Below the pieces are notes generated by a model. The model worked only from the letters and a program-made list of their open reading frames with translations, was not told where the DNA came from and did no database searches. The position numbers were made by a program, and so were the translations under genes. Source: Myxococcaceae bacterium (GTDB lineage Bacteria > Myxococcota > Myxococcia > Myxococcales > Myxococcaceae). From it: a stretch of DNA of 60,763 nucleotides. The DNA lies in NCBI GenBank assembly GCA_019694595.1, contig JAIBBQ010000014.1:1-60763 (forward strand), read 5' to 3'. This document shows, one piece after another, positions 48,478 through 59,827 of this stretch (positions within the stretch are counted from its first letter, which is position 1; every line of letters begins with the position of its first letter).

Positions 48478-49020
48478 TCAGCCCGCGTCGGGGAGCGAGA
48501 GGTACTTCGCCGCGTCGATGCCGCCGCAGACGCCGCCGTCGGGCGCTTCGAAGACGTTGACCTGGTCGGCATACGGAGTGCCCGTCTGCACCGGGAGCGC
48601 GTCGTTCACCCGCTCGACGTAGAGGAGCGTGCCGCTGTCGAGGTCGTCGGTGGGGTAGCCGACCTCGAAGTAGAAGTAATTCGCGCTCGGCGGCAGGCAG
48701 GCGATGCCCGACCAGTAGCCGGCGTCGAAGTCGTCCATCGGGTACTTGCCGGTGGGCAGCACCAGGCGGGCGTCGACCTGGTCCGTCTCGTGAGGGAGCG
48801 CGAAACGCACCACACAGCAGCCCGCGTCCAGGAAGCCGCCGCCGGCCGCGAGCGGGTCGGTGGGCATGACCTTGGTGACGTTGGGGCCCACCTCGCCAGC
48901 GGGGAGGTCGCGGGTGATGAGGTCGGGCGCCTTGGGCGAGCCGCCGCACGCCAGCAGCGCGCTCGCCAGCACCGCGGCCATGCCGCCCCCCACCGTGGAC
49001 AGCTGCCTGCGCGCGCTCAT
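48478..49020 (-). CDS. Small lipoprotein, 180 aa
   Basis: Predicted lipoprotein: a long basic start, hydrophobic 'MAAVLASALLAC' with lipobox LLAC, then 'GGSPKAPDLITRDLPAGE'. The mature part is acidic with several aromatic residues ('SANYFYFEVGYPTDDLDSG') and four cysteines, including an adjacent pair ('DAGCCVV'). The ATG at 49020 overlaps the stop of the lipid-transfer-like gene (ATGA). I recognise no family. Coupling suggests it forms a stoichiometric complex with the upstream products. Confidence 0.75.
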   Translation of the reverse strand: MSARRQLSTVGGGMAAVLASALLACGGSPKAPDLITRDLPAGEVGPNVTKVMPTDPLAAGGGFLDAGCCVVRFALPHETDQVDARLVLPTGKYPMDDFDAGYWSGIACLPPSANYFYFEVGYPTDDLDSGTLLYVERVNDALPVQTGTPYADQVNVFEAPDGGVCGGIDAAKYLSLPDAG

Positions 49021-50906
49021 CGGAACACCTCCAGACGCTCTTCCCGGGTGAGGATGGTGCCGAACTGGTTCAGCACCTGGGTGCCCTTCGCCCGCTCCCA
49101 GCGCGCGTGTTCCACCAGCGCCTTGCGGGTCTCGGGCTCGTCCTTCACCGCGCTCTGGGCGATCAAGAACACCATGTTGCGGCGGGTGTACGCCGATTTG
49201 GTGCTGCGCAGCTCGGACAGGGTCTGATCGACCAGCTCCTTGCTCGCCCCCTGCTGCATGTCGACGTGCTGCTGCTGGAAGACCCGGTACATCTCCTTCT
49301 TCACGAAGGGGCTCGTCTCGCGCTTGAGCAGCTCCACCTCGGTGGCGTCGGTCGCCGCCGGCGGCATGCGGGAGAACACGTGCACCGCCGCCTTGCGGGT
49401 GTCGATGTCGGCCGACGCGAGGAACCGGTCGGCCACCGGCAGGAGCGTCAGGTCGCCGGTGTTGCCGATGGCGTGCAGCGCGACGTGGGTGGGGTGGGTG
49501 GTCTCGCCCTGGCTGCTCAGCACGCTGGTGAGCGCCTCGCGGGTGGTGTGCGCCACGTCGGTGTCGTTGCGCAGCCCGCTCATGGTGGACAGCGCGAGCA
49601 TCGATTCCCCGGCGAGGAAGTCGGAGTCGTGGTTCCCGCGCGCGACGTGGCGGTGCACGTCGGCGGCGAGCTCCTGGGCCAGGCCCGGGCCCACGTCGGT
49701 GCGGGTCACCAGCGCGAACATCGCGCGGACCTGGTCCATCATCACCGCGCCGTCGTCGCGCTTGATGGCCAGGAGCAGCTCCCGCGCCTCGTCGTTGCGC
49801 GTCTTGCCGAGCGCGAGGAAGAAGTCGCCCGCCGAGCTCGGCGGCAGCTCGCCCTTGAGGTACTTCGAGTACGCGGGCTTGATCGCGTCGGGGTGCACCT
49901 CGAAGTAGGCCGAGAGGTCAGGCCACTTGTCCATCGTGCCGCCGCCGGCCGACTGCTTGGCGACGAAGGCGTCGAGCGCCTGCGGCAAGGTCAGCGGGGC
50001 CACCCGCTCCTGGCGCTCCCGGTCGAACCGGGTGAACGGCCGCGCCACCAGCTCGAGCTTGGGCTGCCGGGTGAGGAGGTCGCCCCAGACGTAGTTGCCC
50101 TGGTCGCGCTCCGCCGGCGCGAAGGCCACCTCGGCCGCGTCACGCTTGAGCAGCAGCCTGGAACGGTTCGACAGCTTGGTCGCCAGCTGGGCGCGGCTCG
50201 AGTCCAACGACTCGAACCAGGGGCCGGGCCCCAGGTCGACGGTCATGCGCCCTTCGACCTTCAGGTCGGCAGGCTCGCCCGGCCAGGTCGACCGGTACCC
50301 GTCGAGGGAACGCTGCAGGAGGTCCCCCTTCGACGCCTGGGTCGCCGCCGCGATGCCGCTCGAGTCCTTCACCCCGAGCTCACGCACGCCGAGGCGGAAC
50401 TGCGCGTCCCACAGCAGCGCTTGCTGGGTGCGCGCCACCTGCTCGGCCGCCGGCTTCCAGCGCGCGAAGGCCTGCAGCTGGCAGGCGCGGTCGATGGTGA
50501 CCAGGAACGGCGCCCGGAACGCCTTCACGTCGAAGAACGACTGGGTCGCCTTGGGCGCCAGCGTCACCTTCGCCACCAGCGTCGCCGCCTCCTCGGTGGA
50601 CGACAGCACCTCGAGCTCCAGCCGGCCCGTGAGGTCGGCCTTGGCGTGCGCGGGCAGGTTGAGCCCCGGAGTCTCGTGGTGCAGCTCGGCTTCCAGACCC
50701 GCCGCGTAGGAGAGCGTCTGCCCCGGCTCGAACCGGCACGCGACGCGCGACGCCTGGAGCGGCGCCGCGGCCTGGGCCGCGCTCGGCGCGCCCCCCACCT
50801 CGGGCGTCTCCCGCGGCGCCTCGCTCGGACCACGGAGCGCGAGGACCGCCGCGCCGCTGCCCAGCAGCAGCGCACCACCCACCACCATGCCAATGCGCGT
50901 CTTCAT
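49017..50906 (-). CDS. Large lipid transfer protein-like (vitellogenin/apoB N-terminal module) envelope protein
   Basis: A 629-residue protein with an N-terminal signal or anchor ('MVVGGALLLGSGAAVLAL'). Residues 50-330 are beta-rich, opening 'CRFEPGQTLSYAAGLEAEL'. Residues 350-629 are a helical superhelix of HEAT-like pairs, with 'HVALHAIGNTGDLTLLPVAD' (N482), 'DTRKAAVHVFSRMPP' and 'SPFVKKEMYRVFQQQ'. This order of beta-barrel then helical superhelix, and the GNxG and 'RKAAVxxxxRMPP' pattern, are what I know from the LPD_N/vitellogenin_N domain of apoB and MTP. The ATG overlaps the preceding stop by one base (TGATG). The lipid-carrier role is inferred. Confidence 0.65.
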   Translation of the reverse strand: MKTRIGMVVGGALLLGSGAAVLALRGPSEAPRETPEVGGAPSAAQAAAPLQASRVACRFEPGQTLSYAAGLEAELHHETPGLNLPAHAKADLTGRLELEVLSSTEEAATLVAKVTLAPKATQSFFDVKAFRAPFLVTIDRACQLQAFARWKPAAEQVARTQQALLWDAQFRLGVRELGVKDSSGIAAATQASKGDLLQRSLDGYRSTWPGEPADLKVEGRMTVDLGPGPWFESLDSSRAQLATKLSNRSRLLLKRDAAEVAFAPAERDQGNYVWGDLLTRQPKLELVARPFTRFDRERQERVAPLTLPQALDAFVAKQSAGGGTMDKWPDLSAYFEVHPDAIKPAYSKYLKGELPPSSAGDFFLALGKTRNDEARELLLAIKRDDGAVMMDQVRAMFALVTRTDVGPGLAQELAADVHRHVARGNHDSDFLAGESMLALSTMSGLRNDTDVAHTTREALTSVLSSQGETTHPTHVALHAIGNTGDLTLLPVADRFLASADIDTRKAAVHVFSRMPPAATDATEVELLKRETSPFVKKEMYRVFQQQHVDMQQGASKELVDQTLSELRSTKSAYTRRNMVFLIAQSAVKDEPETRKALVEHARWERAKGTQVLNQFGTILTREERLEVFR

Positions 50907-53900
50907 CAGAACCCCACCGGGAAGTCTTTGAAGTCGTACTCGAACTCGGTCAGCGTGCCTTCGCCCTCGTTGAAGCCCTCGTACTCGAACAGCGTGTACG
51001 AGATGCCGAGGAGGGGCGTCACCACCTTGATCTCCAGCGCGCCACTGAGCAGGTGAACGCTCCAGGTCACCTTGGCCCCGAACTTCGTCTGGCTCGCCGA
51101 CAGGCCGGCGTTGTTGCTCACCTTGGTGTGGGTGACGCTGACGCCGGGGGTCAGCTTGGCCTCGATGAGGTTCATCGAGCCTTCGAGGCACACCCCGAGC
51201 TCGTCGCTGGGCACGCAGAAGGCCACCGAGAAGCCGGCCGCCGCCACCACGTTCAGCTTGATGCCCACCTCGTGCGAGGTGCCCTTGGACAGCAGCGGGC
51301 GAATGCACGCGGCCGGGTGCGACTCGCTCATGCTCCGCATGCGCATGGTGTTGTTCTGGAGCGTGACCGCGCTGTCGACCGGCTTCTGCAGCAGCGGGGA
51401 GTCGACCGACACCTTCTGGCCGCCCAGCTGCGGGAGTGTGGTCTCGTAGTCCTCGAAGGCGCCGAAGTTGCGGGAGCGCTTGAAGTTCGCCGAGTCACTC
51501 AGCCAGCGGAAGTACTGCGAATGGCCGCTCTGGCAGGCCGAGCTGTTCCAGTTCGTCGCGCAGTCGGACTTGTTCTGGTACTCGTTGCCCACCTGCGCCG
51601 CGATCCAGGTCTCGGTGTCCGCCGGGATGACCGAGCGGATCTTGTCCGCGTCGGCCTGGGTCCGCGGCTCCATCAGCCGGCCGCCGAGGAAGTAGCAGAG
51701 CGAGCGCGCCTGCAGGAACGAGGTGTCGGGGATCTTGAGCACCGGGTCGGGGCAGCCGTCGGCCTGGGTGCCGTCGGCCTTGGTGGTGGCGCACTTCGAT
51801 TCCACCTTCGGGTTGTACTTGTGGAACACCTCGATGTTCATGCCCGCGCCGGCACCGACGCCGAAGATGAGCTCGCCCATCAGCGGCGGGTAGGTCACCG
51901 GGATCTTGTACTCGAAGCCCACGCTGAGCCCGTTGACCGACGCCGAGACGCGCTTGCCTTCGATCTTGAAGGCGGGGAACGGCTTGCCGAACGCCTTGGC
52001 GATGGCCTCGTAGTTCGGGCTGATGGTGAGCACCGTCTCGACTTCCTTCACCTCGCCGTTCTCGGCGGTGTCGAGCACGTCGAAGCCGAACATCTTGAAG
52101 GTGGTGGAGAACTTGTTCGAGGTGTCGTCCTCTTCCTGATCGCCGACGATCGACAGCACCGTCGCCTTGATGGGCGCGTCGGTGCCGCCCAGGTTCTGGT
52201 CGGTGGTGGTCTCGCAGCGAGCGCCCACGCAGTCCTGGGTGGTGTCGGAGTTGAACGTGCCTTCCAGCTTCGACGGGTCACCGCTGGTCGTCGGCTGCAG
52301 GTCGCTCGCGTCGCCGTCGCCGTCGTCCACCTCGGCGATCGGCACCACGATGTTCTCACCCTTGAAGGTGAACACCGGGCTGGTGGCGCAGTTGTTCTTG
52401 GCGACCTTCAGGTTCGACGCGGCCCCATCAGGCAGGAGATTCACCGCGGTGGGGTCGAACTTTCCGTTGAAGCTCTTCGCCGGGTCCGCCGGAGCGACCC
52501 GGGCGTGCTTCACGTACTTGAACTTGTTGTCCTGAAGCCCCTTGTACTCACCGTTGTAGGTGAGCGTGTAACTGGCATCGATGGAGATGTCGAAGTCCTC
52601 GGTCACCTCGTTCTGGCCGCAGACCTGCAACACGTAGGTGACCGTGCTGCCGGGAACGAGCGGGTACTTCTTGTTGTCGAAGAGCGCCGAGCGGACCTTG
52701 CTGTTGATCCGCACCCGCATCAGCGCGTTGGCGCCGGTCTCGCTCAGCGATCCGTCGAACTTGATGCCCAGCGCCTCTTCGGGCACCGAGACCATGGCGG
52801 TGTAATCGAGCACCGGCTGCCCGTTCGCATCGAGCTTCGCCGGGTCGGGCACCGGCACCAGCGCGGTGATCTTCGAGCCGTCGAACGCCCCGATCGGGAA
52901 CACCGGGCTCACGACCGAGGAAGCGAGCGCCATCTTCCGACCCTGCGATGAGACGTCGCGGGTCATCTCGAACTGCTTCTTCGGGTACTCGTCGTAGAAG
53001 CTCGAGCCCTTGAACCGGTCGGTCTTGGTCTGGAGGAAGCGGCCCCAGGTCTCGGAATCGGGCCCCGAGAGCGCCATCACCACCGTGGCGTCGATGGAAC
53101 CGCGCGCGCGGCCGGCCTTGTTGACCTTGTATTCCAGCACCGGCACCTCGACGCCGGTCACGGCGACCAGGTTCGCGGGGACGGTGTTGAACAGCACCGG
53201 AGGCGTCTTGCCGGGCGAGCGGCCCCGGTGGTCCAGCGGCACCTGGGTCTGCGAGTAGTAGTCGTAGCTGCGGTGCGCCTTCGCTTCGTAGTTGTAGAAG
53301 AAGTCGATGGGGTTGGGCGCGCAGGTGTTCTCTTCCGTCACCGAGCCCGACGTGAGAATGGCGTTGCCTTCGAGGTCGTACGACGCCATCAGCTCGGTGG
53401 ACAGCGCGGTGGTGACCGAGCCCGCGCCCGAGGCGTCGTAGCCGGCGGCGCTCCACGCGGACTGAACGGCCGAGCTGAACCGCGCCCCGTCGTTGCACTC
53501 CGGTGGCACGCGCAGGAACTCGTCGAACGGCACCGACCAGCCGCTCGCGGTCTTCACCGCCTTGCGCTTCTTGAGATCGATGCGGCCCAGGAAGCACCGG
53601 AAGATGTCCATCGAGGCCCCGGCGTTGCCCGGCTTGGCGACGGTGCTCTTGAACCACAGGGTGAGCAGCTGCTGCGGCGACACCGCACCCTGGGTCTCGA
53701 CCGCGCCCTTGAGGTGGTACATCTGGTCCTGGTCGAGCGTGATGACCCGCGCGCCTGCCGCGCCCGAGTACGCGTCGGGAGAGTCGCGCGACGGGTCCTG
53801 GAGCGGGCGCTCGAGCGAGTCCACCAGCACCTTGATGGTGTCCTTGGGCTCCGCGACCTTGATGAGGTCGGGCGCGCAGGCCAGCTCGGAGGTGCGGCGC

Positions 53901-54415
53901 GTGTGGCCGTAGCAATTGGCCGGCACGCAGGCGAGCTTCTGCTCGGTGCGGGGCGAGCAGAGGACCTGGGCGTAGTCGGCGGTGTGGTCCGCGGTCTCGC
54001 GCGCGCAGCCGTACGTCACCGTGATCCGGCTGCCGTTGCACTTCGCGCGGTCGAACATCACCGCGTAGGAGTCCTTCGTGCCCGCGCACTCCCAGTTCTT
54101 GGCCGAGCAGTACTTCTTCACGTCGTCGGTGACGTCGATGGCCGCCTTGCCCGGAGGCGTGCAGGTGGCCGACTTGACGATGACGTAGTTGCTCTCTTCG
54201 GAGCGGGCGCCGTTGATGCCGGCGTCGCCCTGCAGGCGGCGGAGCGACTGGTCGTCGAGCCCGGTGGGGAACTTGTAGAAGTCCCACGGCACCATGCCGG
54301 CCGGGCACGAGGAGATCGCCAGCCCCTGCCGCGTCGAGTCGGCGCCGCCGGCGCCGTCGCACCCGGCAACCACCGCCGCCAGCACCACCAGCGAACCGCG
54401 AATCGTCATCTTCAT
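50906..54415 (-). CDS. Giant lipoprotein, 1169 aa, with C-type-lectin-like segment
   Basis: Predicted lipoprotein: 'MKMTIRGSLVVLAAVVAGC' with lipobox VAGC. The ATG at 54415 overlaps the upstream stop by 4 nt. The N-terminal 200 residues are cysteine-rich; the middle is beta-rich, including 'VPLDHRGRSPGKTPPVLFNT'. Residues about 900-1040 resemble a C-type lectin domain: 'ARSLCYFLGGRLMEPRTQAD', 'ETWIAAQVGNEYQNKSDC', 'YFRWLSDS', then a late cysteine in 'PAACIRPLL'. The last 120 residues are strands alternating hydrophobic and polar residues. I do not recognise the full-length family. Coupled to the lipid-transfer-like gene downstream. Confidence 0.8.
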   Translation of the reverse strand: MKMTIRGSLVVLAAVVAGCDGAGGADSTRQGLAISSCPAGMVPWDFYKFPTGLDDQSLRRLQGDAGINGARSEESNYVIVKSATCTPPGKAAIDVTDDVKKYCSAKNWECAGTKDSYAVMFDRAKCNGSRITVTYGCARETADHTADYAQVLCSPRTEQKLACVPANCYGHTRRTSELACAPDLIKVAEPKDTIKVLVDSLERPLQDPSRDSPDAYSGAAGARVITLDQDQMYHLKGAVETQGAVSPQQLLTLWFKSTVAKPGNAGASMDIFRCFLGRIDLKKRKAVKTASGWSVPFDEFLRVPPECNDGARFSSAVQSAWSAAGYDASGAGSVTTALSTELMASYDLEGNAILTSGSVTEENTCAPNPIDFFYNYEAKAHRSYDYYSQTQVPLDHRGRSPGKTPPVLFNTVPANLVAVTGVEVPVLEYKVNKAGRARGSIDATVVMALSGPDSETWGRFLQTKTDRFKGSSFYDEYPKKQFEMTRDVSSQGRKMALASSVVSPVFPIGAFDGSKITALVPVPDPAKLDANGQPVLDYTAMVSVPEEALGIKFDGSLSETGANALMRVRINSKVRSALFDNKKYPLVPGSTVTYVLQVCGQNEVTEDFDISIDASYTLTYNGEYKGLQDNKFKYVKHARVAPADPAKSFNGKFDPTAVNLLPDGAASNLKVAKNNCATSPVFTFKGENIVVPIAEVDDGDGDASDLQPTTSGDPSKLEGTFNSDTTQDCVGARCETTTDQNLGGTDAPIKATVLSIVGDQEEDDTSNKFSTTFKMFGFDVLDTAENGEVKEVETVLTISPNYEAIAKAFGKPFPAFKIEGKRVSASVNGLSVGFEYKIPVTYPPLMGELIFGVGAGAGMNIEVFHKYNPKVESKCATTKADGTQADGCPDPVLKIPDTSFLQARSLCYFLGGRLMEPRTQADADKIRSVIPADTETWIAAQVGNEYQNKSDCATNWNSSACQSGHSQYFRWLSDSANFKRSRNFGAFEDYETTLPQLGGQKVSVDSPLLQKPVDSAVTLQNNTMRMRSMSESHPAACIRPLLSKGTSHEVGIKLNVVAAAGFSVAFCVPSDELGVCLEGSMNLIEAKLTPGVSVTHTKVSNNAGLSASQTKFGAKVTWSVHLLSGALEIKVVTPLLGISYTLFEYEGFNEGEGTLTEFEYDFKDFPVGF

Positions 54416-58210: not shown

Positions 58211-59827
58211 TTACTGCGCGCGACCGGTGAGCGTGACCTGCGAGCTCGCCGCGTAGCCGCGCACCATCACGTGAATGCTGGTCGGGGCGGTGAGATTCAG
58301 AACGCACTGCTCGCTCGAGCCGTTCTGGTACGGGCGGCAGCTGTACGTGGTGGTGGTGGGCGCCGCGCCGTCGCGCACGTAGAGGTCGGCGTCGCCGGTG
58401 CCGGAGATGGCGAAGCGGTAGCTGCCCGCGGGGAGCACCGGCGTCTGGAAGCGGGCTTCCTGCGCCTTCGCCACGGTGACGTTCTCGTTGAGCCCGGCCC
58501 ACGACGGCGTCACGTTGCCGGGGGTGAAGACGTTGTCCTCTTCACCGGTGACCATCACCACCTGGTTGCGGTCGACCGACTGGAAGATCTGCTGGTAGGT
58601 CATCGGCGCGTCGGTCTTGAGCAGCCCCTTCATCAGCGCCACCGTCGCGCCGGGCATCGACGAGAAGAAGGCCGGCATGCCGTTGGTGACGATCTCCATG
58701 TACTTGGTGCCGGTGGGGTCGTCGGGGTTCAGCCGCGCGCGGTCCTGCGCCAGCGAGCCGTCGACGTAGGCGAAGGTGTCGCAGCCGTTCATGAAGAAGA
58801 TGGCGTACTGGCCGGCCACGAAGCGGCCCTTGCGCGAGAGCGCGCGCACGTTCTGACCGAGGCCCGCGTGGCCGTTGTAGACGATGAGGTCGGCGCGGGT
58901 GCTCAGGCCCTCGTAGCGGCGGTCGAACGCTGCGCCCGCGGTGCTCACGTTGTCGACCAGCAGCGCGGTGACCACCACCTGCTTGCCGTTGGGCAGCGTG
59001 GCGGTGAAGGTGACGTCGGGCGTGCTGACGCCGGGGCTGTCGGGCAGCACCGCCGGGGTGGTGGTGACCGAATACGCGCGCAGCTCGGTCTTCATCGCGC
59101 GGATGAAGGCGTTGAAGCCCGCGATGCCCGCGTCCTGCGTGGTGGTGGCCCCGTCCTCGTACTTGCCGAAGATGGCGACCACGCGCAGCGCGCCGTCTTC
59201 CCAGACCTTGCCGTACTCGGGGTACTTGCCGGTGGTGTTCTCGTTCGACTTGGTGGCGGTGGCGGTGAAGCGCACCACGTCGGTCTCGGCGAGCGCGCAG
59301 CCGCTCGTGCGCGGCCGGTAGTAGTACCAGATGCTGCCCGAGTCGACGTCGTGCGCGCCGAAGTCCACGCACTTGCCCTTGTACTTCTCGGTGAAGGCCT
59401 CGATGCCGGTGGCGTCGACCGCGCGCGGCAAGGTGAAGGCGTAGGTCGACGGCAGCGAGGTCTGGCTGCCCCACGAGACCGGCAGCAGCACCGTGTAGGT
59501 GATGCGGGTGCCGGTGCCTTCGGCCACGGTGCGCACGTTGGAGATCTTGATGCGGTCGAGCCGGCCGACCGCCTTGTCCGCGTTCAGGTGCCCGATGGTG
59601 AAGAGCATCTGCTCGTCGATGGCCGAGCGCGCCCCGAAGCTCGACACGGTGCCCGCGGTCCACAGGGTGGCCTCGAACTGGAAGTTCATCAGCGTGCCCA
59701 CCGCGCTCGAGAACTTCTGGCCGGTGGTGTCGACGGTGTCGTTCGCCTCGTCGGCTTCCTCGAGGAACGACGCGTTGGGCGCACAGGCGCCCGCCACGAC
59801 CGCGAACAACACGATGATACGCTTCAT
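58211..59827 (-). CDS. Caspase/gingipain-like lipoprotein with PPC domain
   Basis: A 538-residue predicted lipoprotein ('KRIIVLFAVVAGACAPNAS', cysteine near 15). Residues 60-290 are beta-rich. A caspase/C25-type core follows: H320 in 'IVYNGHAGLGQNVRAL' and C349 in 'IFFMNGCDTFAYVD' form a His-Cys dyad with hydrophobic strands before each. Residues about 455-538 form a bacterial pre-peptidase C-terminal (PPC) domain ('LPAGSYRFAISGTGDADLYV'). ATG 59827 has a weak ribosome binding site. It precedes the lipoprotein operon by 154 nt and may be its first gene. Peptidase activity is inferred from the dyad only. Confidence 0.75.
   Translation of the reverse strand: MKRIIVLFAVVAGACAPNASFLEEADEANDTVDTTGQKFSSAVGTLMNFQFEATLWTAGTVSSFGARSAIDEQMLFTIGHLNADKAVGRLDRIKISNVRTVAEGTGTRITYTVLLPVSWGSQTSLPSTYAFTLPRAVDATGIEAFTEKYKGKCVDFGAHDVDSGSIWYYYRPRTSGCALAETDVVRFTATATKSNENTTGKYPEYGKVWEDGALRVVAIFGKYEDGATTTQDAGIAGFNAFIRAMKTELRAYSVTTTPAVLPDSPGVSTPDVTFTATLPNGKQVVVTALLVDNVSTAGAAFDRRYEGLSTRADLIVYNGHAGLGQNVRALSRKGRFVAGQYAIFFMNGCDTFAYVDGSLAQDRARLNPDDPTGTKYMEIVTNGMPAFFSSMPGATVALMKGLLKTDAPMTYQQIFQSVDRNQVVMVTGEEDNVFTPGNVTPSWAGLNENVTVAKAQEARFQTPVLPAGSYRFAISGTGDADLYVRDGAAPTTTTYSCRPYQNGSSEQCVLNLTAPTSIHVMVRGYAASSQVTLTGRAQ

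Follow-up and report, generated by a model that had tools for sequence, protein, structure and literature searches.

A myxobacterial gene cassette encoding a probable stand-alone relative of the large lipid transfer protein N-module

The protein P0002, encoded in a 60,763 nucleotide stretch of DNA from a Myxococcaceae bacterium (contig JAIBBQ010000014.1 of assembly GCA_019694595.1, hereafter the window), is very probably related, as a bacterial protein that stands alone, to the N-terminal module of the large lipid transfer proteins (LLTPs), in which an N-sheet barrel is followed by a helical superhelix. The LLTPs, which include vitellogenin, apolipophorin, apoB, and MTP, are described as an animal system that moves fat, and the beta-sheets that follow their superhelix make a lipid cavity. 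What is new here is that an N-module of LLTP type forms a protein of its own in bacteria. No relevant description of bacterial or myxobacterial vitellogenin or LLTP proteins was found in the open-licence literature; sequence databases may carry automatic labels like 'Vitellogenin domain-containing protein' for them.

Open reading frame and predicted architecture of P0002

The open reading frame of P0002 spans positions 49017-50906 on the minus strand and encodes 629 amino acids (all positions of the window given below are on the minus strand). The original prediction placed this frame correctly without naming a strand, and the motifs that it listed are all present, FEPGQTLSYAAGLEAEL at residues 59-75, GNTG at residues 482-485, and RKAAVHVFSRMPP at residues 504-516. 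P0002 is not the product of a chance open reading frame, because relatives with 25-44% identity over nearly the full length are encoded in related genomes. Its predicted tight coupling to the neighbouring genes is borne out by overlaps of 1-4 nucleotides at the junctions of a run of four genes. The ATG of P0002 and the TGA stop codon of the upstream gene, P0003, have one base in common. As calculated from the coordinates, P0004 (54412-58056) and P0003 (starting at 54415) overlap by four bases, as do P0002 (ending at 49017) and the downstream gene, P0006 (starting at 49020).

The AlphaFold model of P0002, which was built with six sequences, has a mean pLDDT of 71.6 and a pTM of 0.54, with pLDDT values mostly of 80-94 in the superhelix and partly below 50 in the barrel. 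This model upholds the proposed two-part layout, in which a beta-rich N-terminal part precedes a helical superhelix. The N-terminal beta domain (residues 57-292, 50031-50738), which matches the LLTP N-sheet barrel according to AlphaFold, Foldseek, and hhalign, consists of strands at residues 64-254 and a single embedded helix at residues 155-167, and is predicted with low confidence at residues 165-255. The HEAT-like superhelix (residues 293-629, 49020-50030), identified by AlphaFold, Foldseek, and profiles, has about 17 helices at residues 293-628. It contains the GNTG motif (49452-49463), whose Asn residue is conserved in every one of 41 bacterial relatives and matches the GN(A/M)G of lipovitellin, vitellogenin, and apoB. 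The chain stops at residue 629, where the superhelix ends, and no C-terminal beta-sheets follow.

Residues 1-55 are predicted to be disordered (pLDDT below 50). They include an N-terminal hydrophobic segment (residues 1-24, 50835-50906) and a Pro/Ala-rich linker (approximately residues 25-56, 50739-50834). The hydrophobic stretch is present and lacks a lipobox in all 41 aligned members of the family, and the linker ahead of the barrel, which is Pro-rich in most members, has a median length of 30 residues with 21% Pro. These features suggest that P0002 is probably held in the membrane by its N-terminal segment, although this segment may instead be cleaved. Membrane anchoring is thus more probable than the simple export that had been proposed.

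Relationship to the large lipid transfer proteins

When 98 related genomes are searched with the protein sequence, relatives of P0002 are detected at 25 places, which are distributed over 18 genomes and include a second copy in the genome of P0002 itself. The named contigs among them are those of Archangium and Myxococcaceae MAGs. Relatives of P0002, but not P0002 itself, exceed the Pfam cut-off for Vitellogenin_N (PF01347). Such matches are found in 48 of the 145 genomes of the order, mostly in open reading frames of 630-760 amino acids, and in 41 of the 146 genomes sampled across the phylum, whereas a PF01347 search of the genome of P0002 gives no match. As judged from their sequences, the P0002-type and Vitellogenin_N-positive proteins are one family. 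Comparison of the two groups by hhalign gives E values of 1e-29 for the full length and 1e-10 for the N domains, with nothing detected in the reversed controls. P0002 also directly matches a Vitellogenin_N-positive locus (L052; E 2e-7, residues 28-537), and 27 of the 41 members of the P0002 family alignment match Vitellogenin_N at E≤0.01.

When the AlphaFold model of P0002 is compared with PDB structures by Foldseek, the six best matches are all LLTPs, with alignments of 603-651 columns. The E values are 3.6e-10 to 2.1e-9 for three MTP chains, 7.6e-9 for lipovitellin, and 1.2e-5 and 5e-5 for apoB. The first match other than an LLTP is an ARM/HEAT protein (2.3e-4, 410 columns). Hence neither of the outcomes that the original prediction had named as evidence against itself, a best match to generic HEAT/ARM repeats only or the lack of any LLTP match, is obtained. 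The LLTPs have low TM-scores (0.27-0.34), which would be explained by a poor prediction of the relative orientation of the two domains of P0002.

The relationship is also detected by profiles. The profile of the Vitellogenin_N-positive group finds lipovitellin (1lsh) at 6e-10 in a single stretch, and that of the 41-member family finds lipovitellin at 1.8e-7 and MTP at 0.03. When the 41-member family is compared by hhalign with lipovitellin, vitellogenin, and MTP, a match of 96% (E 2.3e-9) is obtained, with columns 76-532 colinear with 5-484. In these comparisons the MTP N-module query differs from the PDB chain at one residue, the lipovitellin query was taken from search output, and the only check on the chicken vitellogenin query was that it matches lipovitellin (1.6e-130). 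The N domain was also compared alone, so that an effect due to HEAT repeats only would be excluded. The N domain of the 41-member family matches the LLTPs at 81% (E 1.3e-5, score 42.6), while the best of 100 column shuffles scores 18.8 and the reversed control gives 0.1%. For comparison, the known pair of MTP and lipovitellin plus vitellogenin reaches E values of only 2e-4 (full length) and 0.003 (N domain) in this test. The LLTP match is therefore not accounted for by HEAT repeats alone, because the barrel domain by itself matches LLTPs at the family level.

Searches with P0002 as a single sequence do not reach the LLTPs. Pfam gives only a weak match to HEAT_2 below the cut-off (E 0.0012) and none to PF01347, and nothing meaningful, including any LLTP of the PDB, is detected in NCBIfam or the PDB. 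These misses reflect a limit of sensitivity, because lipovitellin and apoB are likewise missed at E≤1 when MTP is used as a single sequence. The N-domain profile of the P0002 subfamily itself does not directly match the LLTPs (hhalign 0.1%), indicating that the link goes via the wider family and the fold. Likewise, the LLTPs are not matched when the PDB is searched with the N-domain profile alone, so that the case for the N domain stands on the profile-profile comparison and the structure.

HEAT/ARM repeat proteins resemble P0002 in their superhelix of helical hairpins, but lack an LLTP-like N-terminal barrel. It is very unlikely that P0002 is a periplasmic scaffold made of generic HEAT repeats and a beta domain of other origin, matching LLTPs by convergence of repeat helices: the weak HEAT_2 match, the HEAT/ARM proteins that have the best VIA-align Z values (residues 296-629), and the alphaRep designs that top the family profile search are in its favour, but the LLTP match is colinear across both domains, Foldseek places every LLTP above every HEAT/ARM protein, and the LLTP N-sheet is matched even by the isolated barrel region, with negative reversed and shuffled controls. 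The absence of LLTPs from the best 50 VIA-align matches listed, which are HEAT/ARM proteins, shows nothing either way.

The resemblance to the LLTP N-terminal module that had been proposed is thus borne out by the six best Foldseek matches, by Vitellogenin_N in the relatives, and by the barrel match at the family level, and the kinship is well supported. The M subunit of MTP, the best Foldseek match (3.6e-10), shares with P0002 the colinear order of an N-terminal barrel and a helical domain. P0002 differs from it in that it is bacterial, lacks the C-terminal lipid-binding beta-sheet domain, and is probably membrane-anchored; there is no evidence for a PDI partner. Lipovitellin/vitellogenin (PF01347) shares with the P0002 family the profile match over both domains, the GN-x-G motif, and a beta domain with an embedded helix. 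It is, however, longer than 1000 amino acids, as compared with 629 for P0002, which lacks the lipid-cavity sheets and is itself under the Pfam threshold.

Gene cassette and partner proteins

The genes of the run are arranged in the order P0004-P0003-P0002-P0006, and this cassette recurs at eight or more further loci of the P0002 type. A second complete four-gene cassette is present in the genome of P0002 (L067, on contig G000:C47), and its P0002-like protein is 44% identical to P0002. Other subfamilies keep only the pair of the partner and the P0002-like gene.

P0003, the upstream partner, is a lipoprotein of 1169 amino acids from the ATG at 54415 (50906-54415). According to a low-confidence model, its C-terminal part (residues 816-1162, 50930-51970) has long beta strands, several of them clearly amphipathic, on either side of a C-type-lectin-like domain (residues 885-1043, 51287-51763), which is identified by a structure match with a Z value of about 12 over 112 residues at 2.8 Å. 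A C-type lectin domain is also present near the N-terminal end of the partner at locus L077 (Pfam Lectin_C, 3.5e-11).

A gene for a secreted protein or lipoprotein with a beta-rich C-terminus is located near the P0002-like gene in 28 of the 33 loci examined, a count that describes linkage and involves no statistical test, several of these loci having been used to train the partner profiles. The partner C-termini were assigned by two profile groups, and the copy at L067 was counted from a tblastn match. The partner domain is absent in the remaining five of the 33 loci, and is downstream or divergent in a few. The shorter partner groups are related to one another (98%, 4e-14; 87-92%, 4e-6 to 5e-7), and the P0003-type partner is weakly related to the other groups (E 7e-4; cross matches 1.9e-5 and 8e-4). 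The subfamily at L060 and L062 has no partner beta domain nearby. At L056 and L064, a Pfam ADYC protein replaces the usual partner upstream of the LLTP-like gene (7.6e-45 at L056; 76% identical at L064), and at L064 the usual partner is located downstream.

The first gene of the cassette encodes P0004 (54412-58056), a probable lipoprotein of 1214 amino acids with a Gly-rich C-terminus, which has no Pfam match but is highly conserved, with 45-50% identity in the closest cassettes. A cysteine-peptidase-like GHAVVPFGY...RIYDPN stretch is seen in it by eye. The fourth gene encodes P0006 (48478-49020), a small lipoprotein of 180 amino acids. Next to the cassette, the product of the frame at 58211-59800 is secreted and contains a PPC domain (3.1e-10), and a caspase-like YNGHAG...NGCDT stretch is seen in it by eye; only its C-terminal part matches at the loci of the relatives.

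Possible role of P0002

P0002 may well act as a dedicated assembly factor that is anchored in the membrane and has P0003-type proteins as its clients, and this is the reading favoured here. The N-terminal hydrophobic segment would anchor P0002 in the inner membrane and the Pro-rich linker would present its folded part to the periplasm, where the barrel and superhelix may hold the long beta strands of P0003, possibly with lipid, until this protein is folded and passed on. This reading joins the MTP parallel to a foldase-like layout. The domains of MTP that match those of P0002 bind apoB (PMC3337244). Lipase foldases are membrane-anchored and have disordered linkers, and their tether prevents export of the chaperone together with the client; LipH shares one operon with its client (PMC13381987). 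P0002 resembles Lif/LipH in having a probable anchor, a disordered Pro-containing linker, a probable folding domain in the periplasm, and an operon with a secreted candidate client. In contrast, no sequence relation between them is seen, P0002 is predicted by AlphaFold to be a barrel with a HEAT-like superhelix, and the proposed client is a beta-rich lipoprotein rather than a lipase. No foldase family is among the Pfam matches of the P0002 family, and Lif structures are not among the matches listed.

P0002 has been proposed to resemble a lipid-carrier module, but this wording is not supported, because P0002 consists only of the barrel and superhelix and lacks the lipid-binding C-terminal sheets. 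Because it ends with the superhelix, it is classified as a relative of the N-module and not as a full LLTP; it has counterparts of the protein-binding domains but not of the lipid domain. P0003 was considered as a supplier of the lipid sheets. Its strands are long and partly amphipathic, but the model has a pLDDT of only 53, Foldseek matches mainly its lectin-like domain, and LLTP sheets are not among the structure matches of this model. A split system for lipoprotein assembly in myxobacteria, homologous to the animal one, in which the N-module belongs to an MTP-like membrane-anchored loader and the lipid-holding sheets to a secreted apoB-like client, perhaps sharing a common ancestor with vitellogenin, apoB, and MTP of animals, is put forward only tentatively.

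It is unlikely that P0002 is a lipid transfer protein proper, which would bind lipid in a hollow between the barrel and superhelix and carry it across the periplasm, as had been proposed. Its fold kinship with lipid carriers, its envelope location, and the amphipathic beta strands of its partners are consistent with this role, but the end of the chain at the end of the superhelix argues against it. It is likewise unlikely that P0002 is a permanent structural subunit, acting not as a chaperone but as a scaffold in a stable complex of the four cassette proteins in the envelope or at the surface. Conservation of the four-gene cassette, the three probable lipoproteins encoded by it, and the C-type-lectin-like domain of P0003 would fit such a complex. 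However, other subfamilies retain the pair without the cassette, and foldases that are not secreted along with their client typically have such an anchor and disordered linker (PMC13381987).

The existence of a widespread bacterial family that has the barrel and superhelix without the lipid sheets suggests that the module may originally have served to bind and assemble a client made of beta-sheets, as the same half of MTP does for apoB. If P0002 is such an assembly factor, it may serve as a small bacterial model, in which client assembly can be examined separately from lipid transfer, and it has a bearing on the origin of animal lipoproteins. One relative (L051:7836-9029) lacks the beta barrel but keeps a signal peptide and the superhelix, with partner and small lipoprotein genes alongside. 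The barrel is thus not needed in every case, and this relative suggests that the superhelix is able to do part of the job alone.
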